Shown piece by piece: positions 1,171 through 9,055 of a stretch of 64,000 nt of DNA. The notes under the pieces were generated by a model. It saw nothing but the letters and a program-made list of their open reading frames with translations. It searched no databases and was not told where the DNA came from. This DNA is from Anaerobacillus isosaccharinicus (GTDB lineage: Bacteria > Bacillota > Bacilli > Bacillales > Anaerobacillaceae). Each line of letters begins with the position of its first letter. Position 1 is the stretch's first letter. A program made the position numbers and the translations under genes. The DNA lies in NCBI RefSeq assembly GCF_001866075.3, contig NZ_CP063356.1, forward strand, positions 920,164-984,163. Direction: 5' to 3'.

Positions 1171-2133
1171 CTAAGCCTCCTTATATTTATAATAATTCTT
1201 CCGATCTTTAATGTAATTTAATAGTATGTTTTTTGTAATCAGCTGATCCTCTAAGATAGAATACTTAACTGCTTCCTCACACGCTTTAACAATGTCTGCA
1301 TGATTTAATCCTTTAGCCTCTTTGTACACATCTTCTGTAAAAATATTGTTAGATGCTTTGCCATGAAGCTTCATCTTAAATAATCTTGTGATTTGTTCGA
1401 TATCAGGATTTTTATATTCCATCACATCATCAAATCGTCTAAATAGAGCATTATCTAAAATGCTCGGATTATTGGTTGCTGCGATGATAATACTATAGGA
1501 TTCATCATCTTCAAGATTCTGTAAAAATGAATTTAAGATTCTTCTCATCTCGCCTACATCATTATCTAAGTTTCTATCTGACCCTATAGCATCAAACTCA
1601 TCAAATAAATATACCCCTCGAACTTCCTTTATCTGATCAAATACTTGTCGAAGTTTTGCACTTGTTTCACCCATGTATTTCGTTATCAACCGATCAAATT
1701 GTATTACATAAAGCGGTAAATATAACTCGTTGGCTATAACCGAAGCAGTCATGGTTTTCCCTGTACCAGGATCACCTGCAAGTAACAGTTTTGAACGATT
1801 CATAAGTCCATTTTTTCTTAAGAGATCTTTTTTGTGATACTCATTGATTACACGTTTGATTTTTTCTTCTATCTCAACCGAAACGATTAAATCAGATAAA
1901 TGGACATGAGTCATCTTTTGTTCAAGAATGTCTAATCCTTTATTTAATGCTACAACCTTATTTTTGTTTAGATATTTTGGGTTTTGAATAATTTCTTTAA
2001 TTTCACGAGCACTTGCTGTATGACCAACTTTTGCTTCGTGAGCCGCAATTTGCAAAACAACAGTTTTAAATTTCTCTTCATTACTATCGAAATGCGCTCT
2101 TATTAAAGCTTTAATCTGTTCTATTGTTGCCAT
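1171..2133 (-). CDS. ietA: AAA+ ATPase, IetA-like partner of the subtilase
   Basis: A 320-residue AAA ATPase. Walker A is GDPGTGKT (residues 120-127), Walker B is in YLFDEFDA (about 175-182), sensor 1 is AATN (218-221) and the arginine finger is in FRRFD (231-235). The N-terminal 80 residues are helical and lack a recognised domain. It is the first gene of a two-gene operon with the subtilase and has an AGGTG ribosome site. In IetAS systems the ATPase is thought to restrain or direct the protease. The family is clear. The system assignment is inferred from gene pairing. Confidence 0.85.
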   Translation of the reverse strand: MATIEQIKALIRAHFDSNEEKFKTVVLQIAAHEAKVGHTASAREIKEIIQNPKYLNKNKVVALNKGLDILEQKMTHVHLSDLIVSVEIEEKIKRVINEYHKKDLLRKNGLMNRSKLLLAGDPGTGKTMTASVIANELYLPLYVIQFDRLITKYMGETSAKLRQVFDQIKEVRGVYLFDEFDAIGSDRNLDNDVGEMRRILNSFLQNLEDDESYSIIIAATNNPSILDNALFRRFDDVMEYKNPDIEQITRLFKMKLHGKASNNIFTEDVYKEAKGLNHADIVKACEEAVKYSILEDQLITKNILLNYIKDRKNYYKYKEA

Positions 2134-2740: not shown

Positions 2741-2792
2741 AAAAAAGATCCTGTATAACTTAGTGGCACTAAGTTATACAGGATCTTTTTTT
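2741..2792 (-). terminator. Strong bidirectional terminator downstream of ssrA
   Basis: A nearly perfect inverted repeat with arms AGATCCTGTATAACTTAG and its complement, flanked by A6 on the left and T7 on the right. It is an intrinsic terminator in both directions. It lies about 145 bp beyond the tmRNA 3' end and probably ends the rnr-smpB-ssrA transcripts. Confidence 0.85.
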
Positions 2793-2936
2793 ACAGCTAC
2801 GGTTTTTATTACAAATCTTAGTTTAAATTAATAAAGTAAAGCAATTCGTTGCCTAAAGTTTCATAAAGCATATCCTTGCCTTAGTGGCAATAATATGGTT
2901 TAAATCACACACGGCTACTCGGTTGATGTGTAATAT

Positions 2937-3559
2937 TGGTGGAGACGGTGGGACATGTTATTCCACGCTTTCGCGATGGCACTGACTATATCTTGAACTT
3001 GAATGAATTCAAGTCCCTTGGCGTATTATGCAGAATGTAGTTTTGCCTAATGGCAGGATCCTGCATCCTAGTACTACCATTAAGGTAGCCTATAAGTCGA
3101 TACACGGCTGTTGGATTGCTCCACACACCGCTCGGTATTACCTTATCGCTATCGCGACTTAGAGTTCACCGATAAAGCCAAGTTATCACTTGTGTGTCAC
3201 CACACAAGGCGACCATTTTACTAATCGAACCCACGTCCAGAAACATTGGCACTTAAGCTTCTACGAGTGTAGTCACTACATTAGCGTTTCGCAATCAAAT
3301 TTGCCTAGTGACAGGCGTCCTTGATGCTAGTCTGGTTAATCTCTTCCTTCGTCCTCAGACGGTGAACAACCGGCGTATCCCACTAAGTTGAGCCCCGACC
3401 CCTACCACATGGGCGATGGAGGGAGGAGCAGCTACTTAATATTAAGCAGCTAAAGCGTAATTTTGTTTGCCAGTTATAGGCGTTGGCGTTTTAACGAGGC
3501 CGACCCCCTCGACTCGCCACTTAAGCTCAAACTATCCCTGTCGAATCCAAAACGTCCCC
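2937..3559 (-). ncRNA. ssrA: tmRNA (10Sa RNA), split by a group I intron
   Basis: The minus strand begins GGGGACGTTTTGGATTCGAC, the conserved tmRNA 5' end, and ends in CGTCTCCACCA. GGGGACG and CGTCTCC pair as the acceptor stem. The tag frame at 3471-3442 reads GKQNYALAA then stop, so the tag is AGKQNYALAA, shorter than the 15-residue B. subtilis tag. The T-arm is interrupted: exon 1 ends GTGGGTTCGAT (3559-3224) and exon 2 starts TCCCAC (2953-2937). Joining them restores a T-loop TTCGATT on a GTGGG/CCCAC stem. The mature RNA would be 353 nt, close to the usual length. It rescues stalled ribosomes with SmpB. Confidence 0.93.
2954..3223 (-). other. Group I self-splicing intron in the tmRNA T-loop
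   Basis: The 270-nt segment interrupts the tmRNA T-loop. The 5' exon ends in T, and the last exon bases CGAT can pair with GTCG at 3213-3210, giving the required U-G pair in P1. The intron ends in G at 2954. The P7 core is visible: GACTTATA at 3098-3091 pairs with TATAGTC inside AAGATATAGTC (2994-2984), with one bulged base. A strong P2-like hairpin CTTGTGTG/CACACAAG and a CGC-GAAA-GCG tetraloop hairpin near the 3' end fit the class. There is no endonuclease ORF. T-loop group I introns are known in some Firmicute tmRNAs. The splice sites are inferred from pairing. Confidence 0.87.
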
Positions 3560-3750: not shown

Positions 3751-4221
3751 TTACTGTTTTTGTCGTTCTCTAAATACTTTTTCGATCTGGCGTTTCGCAT
3801 CTTTTTCTTTTAATGATTCACGCTTATCGTAGTTTTTCTTACCTTTACCAAGACCAATTAAAACTTTTGCAAAGCCGTTTTTTAAGTAAATTTTTAACGG
3901 GACGAGCGTATAACCTTGCTCTTTCGTGATACCGATAAGCTTACTAATCTCTTTTTTCTTCATTAAAAGCTTGCGTGTTCGCAGTGGATCATGATTGTAA
4001 CGATTTCCTTGCTCATAAGGACTAATATGGGCATTCCATAAGAACATTTCACCATTTTTAATCCGAGCAAATGAGTCTTTAATATTGGCTTTTCCAGCAC
4101 GGATCGACTTTATTTCAGTACCTGTAAGAACAATACCTGTTTCATAGGTTTCTTCAATAAAGTAATCGTGATTAGCTTTTTTGTTTTGAGCAACAACTTT
4201 CCCATCAAGCTTACTAGCCAT
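3751..4221 (-). CDS. smpB: SsrA-binding protein SmpB
   Basis: At 156 residues this is the normal length for SmpB. It has the N-terminal [17 protein letters not shown] and [18 protein letters not shown] signatures and the basic C-terminal tail ending [13 protein letters not shown]. SmpB delivers alanyl-tmRNA to stalled ribosomes and mimics part of a tRNA. It lies between rnr and its RNA partner ssrA, as in B. subtilis. It starts at ATG 4221 after an AGGTG-type ribosome site. Confidence 0.97.
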
Positions 4222-4295
4222 TTTAAAGCACCTCTTTTACAATCATCGTTTGTAAATAATAACATTTTTATTGAAGTATGACAAGGTGCGCTTCC

Positions 4296-4427
4296 AATGT
4301 AGAATGTAAAATGTAAAGTGTAGAATGATTTGTGAGTGTTTCAATGATGTAAAACCTCATTAAAAGATTACAGCATCACTGATTGACCCACAATAACTTT
4401 ACACTCTACACTCTGAACTCTACACTA
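4296..4427. repeat. Family A heptad palindrome (smpB/rnr)
   Basis: The left arm is AATGTAG-AATGTAA-AATGTAA-AGTGTAG. The right arm carries TTTACACTCTACACTC-type heptamers and runs to the rnr stop codon. The arms mix the AATGTAR and GTGTAGA types. Confidence 0.8.
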
Positions 4428-4429
4428 AA

Positions 4430-6787
4430 TTACTTTCTCTTCCCTTTATTGCGTTTGCTTTTTGGGGCGTTTTCGTAAAATTTCTTCTTTTTTGCGCCAC
4501 CTGGTTTTTGTCTGTCAGTTGGTGTTGGTTTAGCCTTGCCATCCTTTTTAGGACCAGTACTAGTACTAGCACCAGCGCCACCGCGGTCTTTTCGCTTACC
4601 TCCACCAACAATAACTTTAGGTTTGTCTTGTGGCGAACGTTCTTTCCTAGGCTTCATGCCAACAACTTCAAAGTCGATTGACATTTCGTCAACGTTTACA
4701 CCAATAACTTTAACCTCGATTTCATCACCGATTCGGAAGATGTTACCCGTTCGCTCACCGACCATGGCGTATTGTTTTTCATCGTAATGGTAATAATCAT
4801 CTGTTAAATAGCTAACGTGGACGAGTCCTTCAATTGTATTCGGTAACTCAACAAATATTCCAAAGTTGGTCACACCAGAAATCATTCCTTCAAACTGCTC
4901 ACCAATTTTATCTTGCATAAATTGGACTTTCTTTAATGTATCCGTATCACGTTCAGCTTCTACTGCACGACGTTCCATTTCAGATGCATGACTTGCGATG
5001 ACTGGTAGTTTTTCAGCCCAATGGCTTGTTGTTGTGTCATCTGTTTTTCCTTCGATTAGATACTTACGAATGAGCCTATGCACAATTAAGTCTGGATAAC
5101 GACGAATTGGCGACGTAAAGTGAGTATAGAATTCAGTTGAGAGACCAAAGTGACCTAAGCTATTAGGGTCGTATTTTGCTTGCTTCATTGAGCGAAGCAT
5201 TACTGTGCTAATAACCGTTTCTTCTGGTTCACCACGGACTTCATCAAGAAGCATTTGTAATGATCTAGGGTGAAGTGTAGTCGCTGTACCGCGAACGACG
5301 TAACCGAAATTCGTAATAAACTCTAAAAACCTTGTCAGCTTTTCAGCATCTGGATCTTCGTGAATTCGGTAGATAAACGGTATTTTCATCCAGTGGAAAT
5401 GCTCGGCAATCGTTTCATTAGCTGCTAACATAAATTCTTCAATCAGTTTCTCAGCTACTGAACGTTCACGAAGGACAACATCGGTTGGTGCTCCTTCTTC
5501 ATCGACAAGAACCTTTGACTCTTTAAAATCAAAGTCAATTGCGCCTCGTTCCATTCGCTTTTTACGAAGAATGTCTGCTAATTCTCCCATTTGTTTAAAA
5601 AATGGGATTAATGGCTCATACCGTTTTGTTACTTCTTCATCTTCTTCAAGCAAAATTTTCCGAACATCTGTATAAGTCATTCGCTCTGTTGTCCGAATGA
5701 CACTTTGGAAAATTTCATGGGCTACGACCTTCCCATTTGGATCAATTTCCATTTCACAAGAAAGCGTCAAGCGGTCGACCTGCGGATTAAGTGAACAAAT
5801 CCCATTAGACAATCGATGAGGAATCATTGGAATCACGCGGTCTACTAAATAGCAACTCGTTGCTCTCTCAAACGCCTCTTTATCAATCGGCGAATCTTCT
5901 GTTACATAGTAACTAACGTCGGCGATATGAACACCTAACTTATAATTACCGTTCTCTAAACGCTCAACGTTAACGGCGTCATCAAGGTCTTTCGCGTCTG
6001 CACCATCGATTGTAACAATCGTTTGGTCACGAAGGTCACGGCGTCCCTTTATCTCTTCAGGGTCGATCTCATCAGGTACAGCATTCGCCTGAGCTAACAC
6101 TTCATCAGGAAATTCTAATGGTAATCCATGTTTATGAATGATTGAGAGAATGTCGACTCCAGGATCATTTTTATGACCGAGAATATTGACAACAATTCCT
6201 TCAGCACTCATTCGCCCTTCAGGATATTTCGTAATTTCTACAACAACCTTGTGACCATCTACTGCGCCACTATTGGCATCTTTCGGGATAAAAATATCAT
6301 TTGGAATTCGCTTATCATCTGCAATGACAAAGCCATAAAACTTATTTTCAGAGTATGTACCTACTACTTTTGTAAGTCCTCTTTCTAAAATACGAATGAC
6401 TTGTCCTTCTGGACGCGCCCCTTCTGATTTCGGGTGAAGTCGTACAAGAACGATATCGCCATTCATGGCACTGTTCATGTCGGCACTATTCACATAAATA
6501 TCTCTTTCAGACATATTATCTTCAGGGATAATAAACGCGAACCCCTTTGCATTAGCTTGTACTTTACCACGGATCAGATTCATTTTTTCGGGTAATCCGT
6601 AGCGATTATTTCTAGTTCTCACAATGAGACCCTTTTGTTCCATTTCATTTAATACTTTGACAAAATCTTTAAATTCACTTGAATCTGTTATTCCAAATGC
6701 TGCTTCTAGTTCCGTAACGGAAAGAGGCTTGTATGCTTCTTCCCTCATAAACTCTAGAAGCTGTTCCTTTCTTTTTCCATAATCCAT
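4430..6787 (-). CDS. rnr: Ribonuclease R
   Basis: A 785-residue 3'-5' exoribonuclease of the RNB family. In order it has an N-terminal winged helix (1-70), cold-shock/OB domains (about 72-200), the RNB domain with the acidic catalytic cluster [14 protein letters not shown] (D261-D270), an S1 domain (about 640-720) and a lysine-rich tail (725-785). RNase R degrades structured RNA and acts with tmRNA-SmpB on non-stop mRNAs. This agrees with its place upstream of smpB and ssrA. The stop codon abuts a family A repeat. Confidence 0.97.
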
Positions 6788-6808
6788 TGTTTTCCCTCCT
6801 TTTTTCTA

Positions 6809-6909
6809 GTGTAGAGTGTAAAGTTTAAAGTGTAGAGTTACTGATTGATTATTCAAGAAGCTCTGTGAAAATCTATAATAACTCTAAACTCTTCACTCTC
6901 AACTCTAAA
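6809..6909. repeat. Family A heptad palindrome, GTGTAGA type (rnr/est)
   Basis: The left arm is GTGTAGA-GTGTAAA-GTTTAAA-GTGTAGA. The right arm is AACTCTAAACTCTTCACTCT-like. The same 7-bp periodicity as the AATGTAR copies is kept with different bases. It ends at the est stop codon. Confidence 0.8.
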
Positions 6910-7653
6910 CTAGATCCAATCTAATTCTTCTAAATACTCATACACATCTTCATGTAGCTGTTCTTTTTCTTCACCTAGCGTAATGACATGTGTAGAGTTT
7001 TCGTACCACTTTAATTGTTTTTCTTCTGACTGAATTTTGTCATGAATGATATTCGCACTTTCAGTATTAATCATTTCATCGTGACGGGCTTGTACGACAA
7101 ATGTTGGCGTATAGATCATGTCCACGTTGTCACGCACCTCTTCTAAAAGACGTTGAAGAGCTTTTAAAGTGGTCATTGGTGTTTTACGGAACTCGTCCAT
7201 TTCACCTTTAATTTGGTCCTCACTTTTTTGCTCACGCTTTTTGTATTCCTCTGCGTAAGCGAGGACACCTTTATACATGACTTCTTCGCTTTTAATGTGC
7301 ATTGGCGCACACATTGGAATTATTCCCTTTACAGGTAAAGTGTAACCTAATTTTAAGGAAAATACCCCTCCAAGAGAAAGGCCGGCTACGGCGATTTCTT
7401 CATGCCCTCTCTCTTTTAAAAAATTGTAACCACCCAGGACATCTTGCCACCAATCATCTGGACCTGTGTAAACTAATTCTTCAGGTGGCACTCCATGCCC
7501 TTTGTACTGAGGGGCATGACATGTGTATCCTTTTTTTTGCAAAAATCTACCTAGCATCCTCACGTCAGCAGAGCTGCCAGTAAAGCCGTGTAGAAGTAAC
7601 ACGGCGCGATCTCCCCCTTCAAAAAGAAAAGGTTTAGGTGCTGCTACTTTCAT
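6910..7653 (-). CDS. est: Carboxylesterase, Est30 type
   Basis: A 247-residue alpha/beta hydrolase. The nucleophile elbow is GLSLGG (Ser93). Asp192 (ARHDEMI) and His222 (STHVITL) complete the triad, at the spacing seen in Geobacillus Est30. LHGFTGS at 21-27 forms the oxyanion region. It hydrolyses short- to medium-chain esters. It precedes rnr in the same direction, as yvaK does in B. subtilis. Confidence 0.92.
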
Positions 7654-7665
7654 ATCGAACCTCCG

Positions 7666-8364
7666 TTAATTTTCGAGAAAGTGATTTATAATGTCTAAAA
7701 GATCATCGCGATCTTCACCTAGCCATATATAATGCTTCGAATTTTTAAAGTAATATAACTGCTTTTCAGTAGAACTAATCATTTCATATAAGTACTCTGC
7801 ACTTTTTTTAGGGGGAACAAGACCATCGCACTCCCCTTGAATGATTAATGTAGGCACTTTTACTTTTTGTAAAATCGGCCTTGTTTTATAAACTGTTTTC
7901 GCAAACTCAACCGTTGCTTTCACAGGTGTATCTTTAATTTTTCTACGATAGAGTTTATAGAGGATGTCATTTTCAAGCTCGCCGCGCCAGCCCTCAATGA
8001 TCCATCCTTTCATATCTTGAATAATTTGCTTTGGATTTAAATAATAGGCGGAGCAACTTAAGAGAATTAGCTTATGAATAGGGTATTTCGCTGCAACGTA
8101 GGAGGCAATCATTCCTCCCATGGAAAACCCTATTACATACACTTTTTCACACCGTTTCAATAATTCCTCTGCTGCTACTTCTGCCGCGTATAGCCAATGT
8201 TTAAAATTGGCTTTCCTTAACCCCTCTTTGCTACCGTGACCAGGAAGTGTTGGTGAATACACTAACCAACCTTTCTTCTGTTTCAAAAAATTTGTAAGTG
8301 GCTCTACTTCTTTAGCTTCCCCAGTAAAACCATGAATACATAAGCAACCAATCATTTTTTTCAT
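7666..8364 (-). CDS. Alpha/beta hydrolase, second carboxylesterase-like protein
   Basis: A 232-residue hydrolase with the oxyanion motif IHGFTGE (10-16), the elbow GFSMGG (Ser81), Asp179 (GECDGLV) and His210 (SKHYIWL). It lies 12 bp upstream of est. The layout matches est closely, so the two look like an old tandem duplication that has diverged. The substrate is not deducible. Confidence 0.85.
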   Translation of the reverse strand: MKKMIGCLCIHGFTGEAKEVEPLTNFLKQKKGWLVYSPTLPGHGSKEGLRKANFKHWLYAAEVAAEELLKRCEKVYVIGFSMGGMIASYVAAKYPIHKLILLSCSAYYLNPKQIIQDMKGWIIEGWRGELENDILYKLYRRKIKDTPVKATVEFAKTVYKTRPILQKVKVPTLIIQGECDGLVPPKKSAEYLYEMISSTEKQLYYFKNSKHYIWLGEDRDDLLDIINHFLEN

Positions 8365-8379
8365 CCCCCATTTATGGAA

Positions 8380-8428
8380 GTGTAGAATACATTGGAAAAT
8401 ATTGCTGAATTCAATCTTACTCTACATA
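8380..8428. repeat. Degenerate family A remnant
   Basis: GTGTAGAATACATT on the left and TACTCTACAT on the right resemble short decayed arms of family A. It lies between the hydrolase and secG. Confidence 0.35.
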
Positions 8429-8486
8429 TACGCGTGTGTCATTCAATTTGTTTCATTTATTTCTTTGATTTGTTATTTCTGTGTAC

Positions 8487-8515
8487 TTGTACAATACCCT
8501 ATGTTGTGGTAAATT
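8487..8515 (+). promoter_or_regulatory. Possible sigma-A promoter of secG
   Basis: TTGTAC (8487-8492) and TAAATT (8510-8515) are separated by 17 bp, 35 bp before the GTG start of secG. The match to consensus is moderate. Confidence 0.4.
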
Positions 8516-8550
8516 AAGAATAATGTGAACTTACGTTGGAGGTGTATGTA

Positions 8551-8781
8551 GTGCAAGCTTTCTTAACAGTATTATTAGTGATCGTTTCAATTTTACTTAT
8601 CGCAGTTGTTTTATTGCAATCTGGCCGTAGTGCAGGCTTATCAGGGGCTATCTCAGGTGGAGCAGAACAATTAGTCGGTAAGCAAAAAGCACGCGGAATA
8701 GATGCAGTATTTCAAAAGGCAACAGTTGTTTTAGCGACATTATTTATCGTCTTAGCAGTTTTAGTGGCTTATTTCTCATAA
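8551..8781 (+). CDS. secG: Protein translocase subunit SecG
   Basis: With a GTG start at 8551 the protein has 76 residues, the length of B. subtilis SecG. The start is set by GGAGGTG at 8538-8544. Two membrane segments flank the conserved loop [19 protein letters not shown] and GKQKARG. SecG is the accessory subunit of the SecYEG channel. In B. subtilis secG is co-directional with est and rnr. Here it is divergent. Confidence 0.95.
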
Positions 8782-8794
8782 TAATTATTACTGA

Positions 8795-8828
8795 AGTAGC
8801 AGGGGATTTTTTCCTTGCTACTTTTTTT
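8795..8828 (+). terminator. Terminator of secG
   Basis: AGTAGCAGGGG and CCTTGCTACT form a stem followed by T7, starting about 14 bp after the secG stop. Confidence 0.85.
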
Positions 8829-8870
8829 GTTTGCGATGTTGATGTCGATTACGGTCGATTTTTGACGTTT

Positions 8871-8963
8871 GGCTTATAAATCGTCGAGTTCGGCTAATAA
8901 GTTACCGATTTTGGCTAATAATTGATGAATTCGGCTAATAAAACCTCGTTTTTGGCTAATAAA
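8871..8963. repeat. Family B array: five GGCTAATAA units with variable spacers
   Basis: The first unit is GGCTTATAAA and the next four are GGCTAATAA. They repeat every 20-21 bp, separated by different 11-12 bp stretches. The array at 42875-42970 has the same five-unit layout and the same variant first unit. Confidence 0.8.
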
Positions 8964-8964
8964 C

Positions 8965-8992
8965 AAAAGCTCCCATCGAAATGGGAGCTTTT
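8965..8992 (-). terminator. Terminator downstream of eno
   Basis: AAAAGCTCCCAT and ATGGGAGCTTTT form a 12-bp perfect stem with a CGAA loop. It works in both directions and lies about 85 bp beyond the eno stop. Confidence 0.8.
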
Positions 8993-8995
8993 TAT

Positions 8996-9055
8996 GTCCA
9001 TATGAGGTGGACTTTAAATGATTTTTGTCCATTTTTGGTGTCTGACACCAAAAAG
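8996..9055. repeat. Family C palindromic repeat
   Basis: GTCCATATGAGGTGGAC is followed by TTTTGTCCATTTTT and the palindrome TTGGTGTCTGACACCAA. The same parts recur at 31129, 38482 and 62322. Confidence 0.75.

Follow-up and report, generated by a model that had tools for sequence, protein, structure and literature searches.

The tmRNA gene (ssrA) of Anaerobacillus isosaccharinicus is, with a probability that we put at about 96%, an intron-form gene that yields a 623-nt precursor from which a 270-nt group I intron removes itself. The gene lies on the minus strand of the window, by which we mean the whole stretch of 64,000 nucleotides that was analyzed (NZ_CP063356.1, positions 920,164 to 984,163). 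A sequence-only reading had placed a group I intron in the T-loop of this gene, and this assignment is now supported by a covariance model, by covariation among 48 introns, by the empty sites of congeners, and by recognition of the joined exons by ARAGORN. In the mechanism that we propose, the transcribed precursor would fold in its intron part, use guanosine to cut after U6 of the T-loop (which forms the U.G pair of P1), join U6 to U7, and release the intron. This would restore the T-arm, a requirement for charging with alanine, for modification of the T-loop, and for SmpB/ribosome function. We infer that the intron is spliced out in vivo and that trans-translation relies on this step.

Anatomy of the interrupted gene

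The tmRNA gene is located directly downstream of smpB and rnr (4430-6787). The interruption falls between T-loop nucleotides 6 and 7, and the exons on its two sides rebuild the T-arm (Table 1). The split loop TTCGAT/T is flanked by the T-stem halves GTGGG and CCCAC, and the acceptor stem pairs as GGGGACG/CGTCTCC, with G-T as its third pair. The intron boundaries (3223..2954) were set by the U.G and terminal-G rules. No open reading frame of at least 80 amino acids, the shortest length listed, overlapped the intron, which lacks a homing endonuclease gene and is too short for one. The elements described from sequence earlier, namely, the intact acceptor stem, the T-arm split by 270 nt, the U-G pair at the 5' splice site, the terminal G, the bulged P7, and the hairpin with a GAAA tetraloop, were all found again at the coordinates given, on the minus strand, a strand that the sequence-only reading had not named.

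Table 1. Coordinates of the tmRNA locus and of the intron elements in the window.
Feature	Position	Strand	Remarks
Interrupted tmRNA gene (ssrA)	2937..3559	-	precursor 623 nt, mature 353 nt; RF00023, 157.4 bits
Exon 1, 336 nt	3224..3559	-	tRNA-like 5' half, tag reading frame, pseudoknot region, T-stem 5' strand, T-loop nt 1-6
Tag coding part	3442..3471	-	GGC AAA CAA AAT TAC GCT TTA GCT GCT TAA = GKQNYALAA + stop; ARAGORN
Group I intron, 270 nt	2954..3223	-	RF00028 end to end, covariation, empty sites in relatives
Exon 2, 17 nt, TCCCACCGTCTCCACCA	2937..2953	-	T-loop nt 7, T-stem 3' strand, acceptor 3' strand, ACCA
smpB, protein partner of tmRNA, directly upstream of the tmRNA gene	3751..4221	-	PF01668, 8.5e-64
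P1	3210..3227	-	exon CGAT and intron TA pair with intron TGGTCG; -1 U.G splice-site pair, U.G in 48/48 rows
P2, GUGA tetraloop	3189..3208	-	two-sided changes in 5/8 pairs
P3, 5' strand (partner 3022..3017)	3177..3182	-	two-sided changes in 4/6 pairs
P4-P6 domain	3105..3172	-	RF00028 match and 48-intron alignment
P7, 5' strand GACTTATA, one bulged base	3091..3098	-	no variation in 7/7 pairs across 48 rows; bulged base variable
P7.1 and P7.2 extension between P7 and P3	3028..3088	-	two-sided changes in 7/9 P7.2 pairs
P3, 3' strand	3017..3022	-	48-intron alignment
P8	2997..3014	-	48-intron alignment
P7, 3' strand TATAGTC	2984..2990	-	48-intron alignment
P9, GAAA tetraloop	2963..2979	-	48-intron alignment; one drawn pair C-C in the window's sequence
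Terminal (omega) G	2954..2954	-	G-ending in parsed introns

Identity and conserved structure of the intron

Both Rfam models named by the sequence-only reading match the locus, albeit to different degrees. The tmRNA model RF00023 scores 157.4 bits, above its cut-off, and the group I model RF00028 (Intron_gpI) matches the insert end to end (model positions 1-253, E = 3.5e-7) but at 33.9 bits, below its curated cut-off of 50 bits, which is a curation threshold rather than a structural feature. The insert is nevertheless the best RF00028 match in the whole genome, 18.5 bits ahead of the next (15.4 bits). In an Rfam scan given 4 kb, RF00028 was not matched at the insert, and at E values up to 10 the model gave some match in 8 of 14 control genomes. 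The low score is probably due in part to the P7.1/P7.2 extension, which the model takes as a long insertion. As a single sequence, the insert folds at z = -5.17, and none of 200 shuffles was as stable. This fold, the full-length RF00028 match, and its rank in the genome place the observation beyond chance.

For a comparative view, 48 introns were aligned with their flanks; these are the 53 intron-bearing loci minus a duplicate (L018), a mis-parsed locus (L029), and three loci without smpB (L033, L040, and L046). Standard pairs made up 98.5% of 3503 cells in this alignment. Two-sided changes occurred in 28 of the 73 pairs, against a mean of 14.1 in shuffled alignments, and none of 500 shuffles reached as high a number. 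When partners were slid by 1-3 columns, 31-38% paired, a control that leans towards the drawn structure, given that this was drawn on the window's own sequence with the Rfam alignment as guide. Covariation was seen in P2, P3, P5, P6, P7.2, P8, and P9, and a single two-sided cell came from P4. P1 and P7 are nearly invariant, so covariation offers them no support of their own. The drawn structure provides the intron with a P3-P9 core including the P3/P7 pseudoknot, the same core as in RF00028, from which the intron differs by its score. The stems between P7 and P3 are, as we take it, reminiscent of subgroup IA. The last intron nucleotide was G in 52 of the 53 parsed introns; the exception, L029, reflects a parsing error, and this intron likewise ends in G.

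The modest Rfam score would fit a catalytically dead insert, in which case the gene would be a tmRNA pseudogene and ribosomes would be rescued by another pathway. We consider this very unlikely. In the sequence of the window, P1 to P8 as drawn contain standard pairs throughout, and the residues at the splice sites match those of 47 relatives. Furthermore, the two intron-bearing congeners differ at 5.9% of positions in the intron versus 1.2% in exon 1, which argues that the exons are under constraint, and no other locus of the genome exceeds the tmRNA cut-off.

Recognition and copy number of the tmRNA

The gene is poorly visible to standard tools. The RF00023 match stops at 3222, inside the intron, and ARAGORN called 0 genes and no tmRNA on the window, nor a tmRNA on the precursor. 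On the joined exons, it called a complete 353-nt standard tmRNA with the tag GKQNYALAA. Natural loci behaved in the same manner: among six of them, ARAGORN called a tmRNA in L007, L008, and L077, which lack the intron, but in none of L005, L006, and L089, which carry it. The earlier expectation that automated annotation would tend to misplace the 3' end is thus borne out by the empty ARAGORN result and by the end of the Rfam match within the intron. With no ARAGORN call and an Rfam tmRNA match that breaks off in the intron, such a gene is easily missed, and the genome could wrongly be labeled tmRNA-free or receive a false 3' end.

One way in which the intron reading could have failed is an uninterrupted tmRNA 3' end elsewhere. 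A whole-genome search with RF00023 gave 50 matches, only one of them, at this locus, above the cut-off; the remaining 49 reached at most 31.5 bits, with the best being tRNA-sized, and no second, uninterrupted tmRNA was found in the genome. That a single locus passes the tmRNA cut-off strengthens the case for trans-translation depending on splicing: if the bacterium uses tmRNA, its source would be this gene after splicing.

The gene could conceivably be a circularly permuted two-piece tmRNA with the insert as its intervening sequence, as the corresponding model RF04321 gives a match on the same strand. This match scores 29.2 bits, below the cut-off of 47, the gene order is the standard one from 5' to 3', the joined exons form a standard tmRNA, and relatives with empty sites contradict a permuted arrangement, leaving it a negligible probability.

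Distribution in the genus and the order

The intron form of the gene is not universal in the genus. In a search of seven genomes, including that of the window, the four near-complete ones were matched, and three incomplete or contaminated ones gave no match. Two of the four near-complete genomes, our own and G005, carry the intron. The other two, G002 and G006, match exon 1 only, and in both GGGTTCGAT runs straight into TCCCAC, which constitutes an empty site. Because half of the near-complete genomes of the genus do without it, the intron is dispensable for tmRNA function as such.

At the level of the order, intron DNA was matched in 93 of 397 sampled genomes. Dropping three weak partial matches (G121, G142, and G369), each with an uninterrupted T-arm, left 90 intron genomes. 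Uninterrupted T-arms, searched for by exact pattern, were retrieved from 222 genomes in which C precedes the site and from 56 in which U does. The intron, C, and U sets are mutually exclusive and leave 29 genomes unassigned. This distribution also bears on the idea that the insert is an artefact of assembly or misbinning or an unrelated piece of mobile DNA. We found nothing in favor of this idea and regard it as extremely improbable: the window lies within a single 5.2-Mb contig, homologous introns are present in about 90 of the 397 genomes, and all 53 parsed intron-bearing loci hold the intron at the same site. No clear phage relative of the intron was detected among 50,697 phage records, four of which matched only from query position 230 to 268-270 with E values of 0.02 to 0.9, and three plasmid records matched over exon 1 only.

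The arrangement is already known in kind and common among relatives, and our case is an ordinary one. The intron form of tmRNA is reportedly to be credited to Williams in 2002. Clostridium botulinum belongs to a different class of Bacillota than the host studied here. It likewise carries a group I intron in its tmRNA gene (287 nt, behind a 5' exon of 338 nt), previously shown to self-splice according to the accessible part of PMC2729099; the two introns share the host gene and are likened here by their description. The intron of the window is probably self-splicing as well. In the accessible part of a 2025 survey, 883 unique intron-form tmRNA sequences are reported from 21 phyla, predominantly Bacillota, with introns mostly at position 7, an endonuclease gene in 36 of the 883, and an average length of 293 nt in the founding set (PMC11915505). 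The sequence-only reading had stated that some tmRNA genes have group I introns at this position, and this part of the survey documents them. The intron of the window resembles these published forms in its T-loop position 7, its -1 U, its terminal G, its size class, and the lack of an endonuclease gene, and in the features that could be compared with this part of the survey we found no difference in kind.

Inheritance of the intron

The inheritance of the intron was approached with a quick tree of 159 rows (73 C, 49 intron, and 37 U) built from SmpB and exon 1 minus its last bases. On this tree, the intron state requires at least 35 changes, 24 of them forced by starred branches, counts that are no rates, as the rows were picked by matches. 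The state was more clustered than in any of 500 shuffles (mean, 42.2). Across 48 intron-bearing loci, intron distances correlated weakly with SmpB distances (Spearman 0.37), compared to 0.59 for exon and SmpB distances. Purely vertical descent of the intron was considered and discarded: the AU test rejects the host tree for the intron data (p = 9.8e-5), whereas the SH test does not (0.202). The likelihood deficit of the host tree for these data (98.6) is small beside those of five shuffled trees (897 to 1054), and we therefore favor mostly host-like descent. In 41.8% of pairs, the introns were closer to each other than the exons were; on median this held for far pairs only, and saturation could also account for it. 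Apparently, the intron is patchy across many Bacillales lineages, with repeated gain and loss, mostly along host lines. Some transfer between lineages is likely, with noise as the alternative.

One of the loci in the SmpB/tmRNA tree, L097, is titled Chryseobacterium sp. ISL-80 and groups among Mesobacillus and other Bacillaceae; it is probably a mislabeled Bacillaceae genome.

The base before the intron

Our data raise the possibility that the last exon base ahead of the intron (position -1, i.e., T-loop nucleotide 6 or tRNA position 59) switches along with the intron in Bacillales, a proposal that we advance tentatively and at somewhat less than even odds. The base could be parsed in 167 of 173 loci, three of which (L018, L162, and L163) repeat others. 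It was U in all 53 parsed intron genes, and among parsed intron-free loci it was C in 74 and U in 40. The exact-pattern search gave C in 222 of 278 uninterrupted genes. U-type empty sites were more common in genera that also hold the intron (24 of 58 empty-site genomes, versus 32 of 220 elsewhere), a difference that was also seen when counted by genus (15 of 27 versus 21 of 86; p = 0.004, descent not being corrected for).

Among 15 pairs of intron and empty genes picked by hand, the empty gene had C in 5 and U in 10. For two of the C pairs, exon 1 shows 4 differences in 342 positions and 2 in 345, the -1 base being one of them in each; the other three C pairs have 13, 26, and 46. Two U pairs have identical exons 1, and across the four pairs from our own genus the number of differences ranges from 6 to 25 in 336 positions. 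Two strains that both bear the name Robertmurraya korlensis differ in the same gene: PF24B2 has the intron and U before the site (L089), and NBRC 107688 has no intron and C (L077).

The U rule itself, together with 15 exceptions bearing C, is stated in the accessible part of PMC11915505, where T-loop sites are called pre-adapted, as most frequently offering U. We did not find C as the usual base in intron-free Bacillales, flipping with the intron, stated in that part of PMC11915505 or in the tmRNA-intron literature searched, in which subscription papers were sparse, and the pattern at -1 may be new. If the base indeed changes with the intron, the published idea of invasion at a pre-existing U would fit Bacillales poorly. 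The U would then be brought in by a very short converted stretch along with the intron, or else be selected later, and a U in an intron-free gene would indicate a vacated or receptive site.

The region downstream of the tmRNA gene

A pair of genes resembling the IetAS anti-phage system was observed just downstream of the tmRNA gene (window 1171-2133, minus strand; L187:13784-16327, minus strand). It comprises an AAA ATPase (IetA, 8.5e-70) and a subtilase (IetS, 1.9e-37) and is followed by a tyrosine integrase (L187:12415-13254, plus strand). About 5.7 kb of this region is common to G005 at 96%, and the subtilase region of G005 reads as several shorter frames. The terminator hairpin of the tmRNA gene (window 2909-2925, minus strand) is reduced to its 5' half, likewise in G005, and is full in G002 and G006, which suggests that the downstream island starts in the loop of this hairpin. 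Island and intron are both present in our genome and in G005; G002 and G006 are without the island in the roughly 14 kb compared. A comparison of the first 220 bases with bases 4000-9000 retrieved no exact direct repeat of 11 bases (our genome) or 12 bases (G005) flanking the island.

A perfect 20-bp inverted repeat bordered by a T-run on either side (window 2745-2787) is likely a bidirectional terminator and may now end the tmRNA transcript. Rfam matches to MIR9486, MIR1888, ncr1015, and StyR-143 at 2639-2800 were dismissed, as all are below their gathering scores and overlap this hairpin.

Implications for ribosome rescue

With a sole tmRNA gene that would need self-splicing, ribosome rescue in this bacterium would hang on a ribozyme, as the literature already implies. 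Having two near-complete genomes with the intron and two without, the genus would be well suited for a direct test of whether the intron bears a cost or has a regulatory role.
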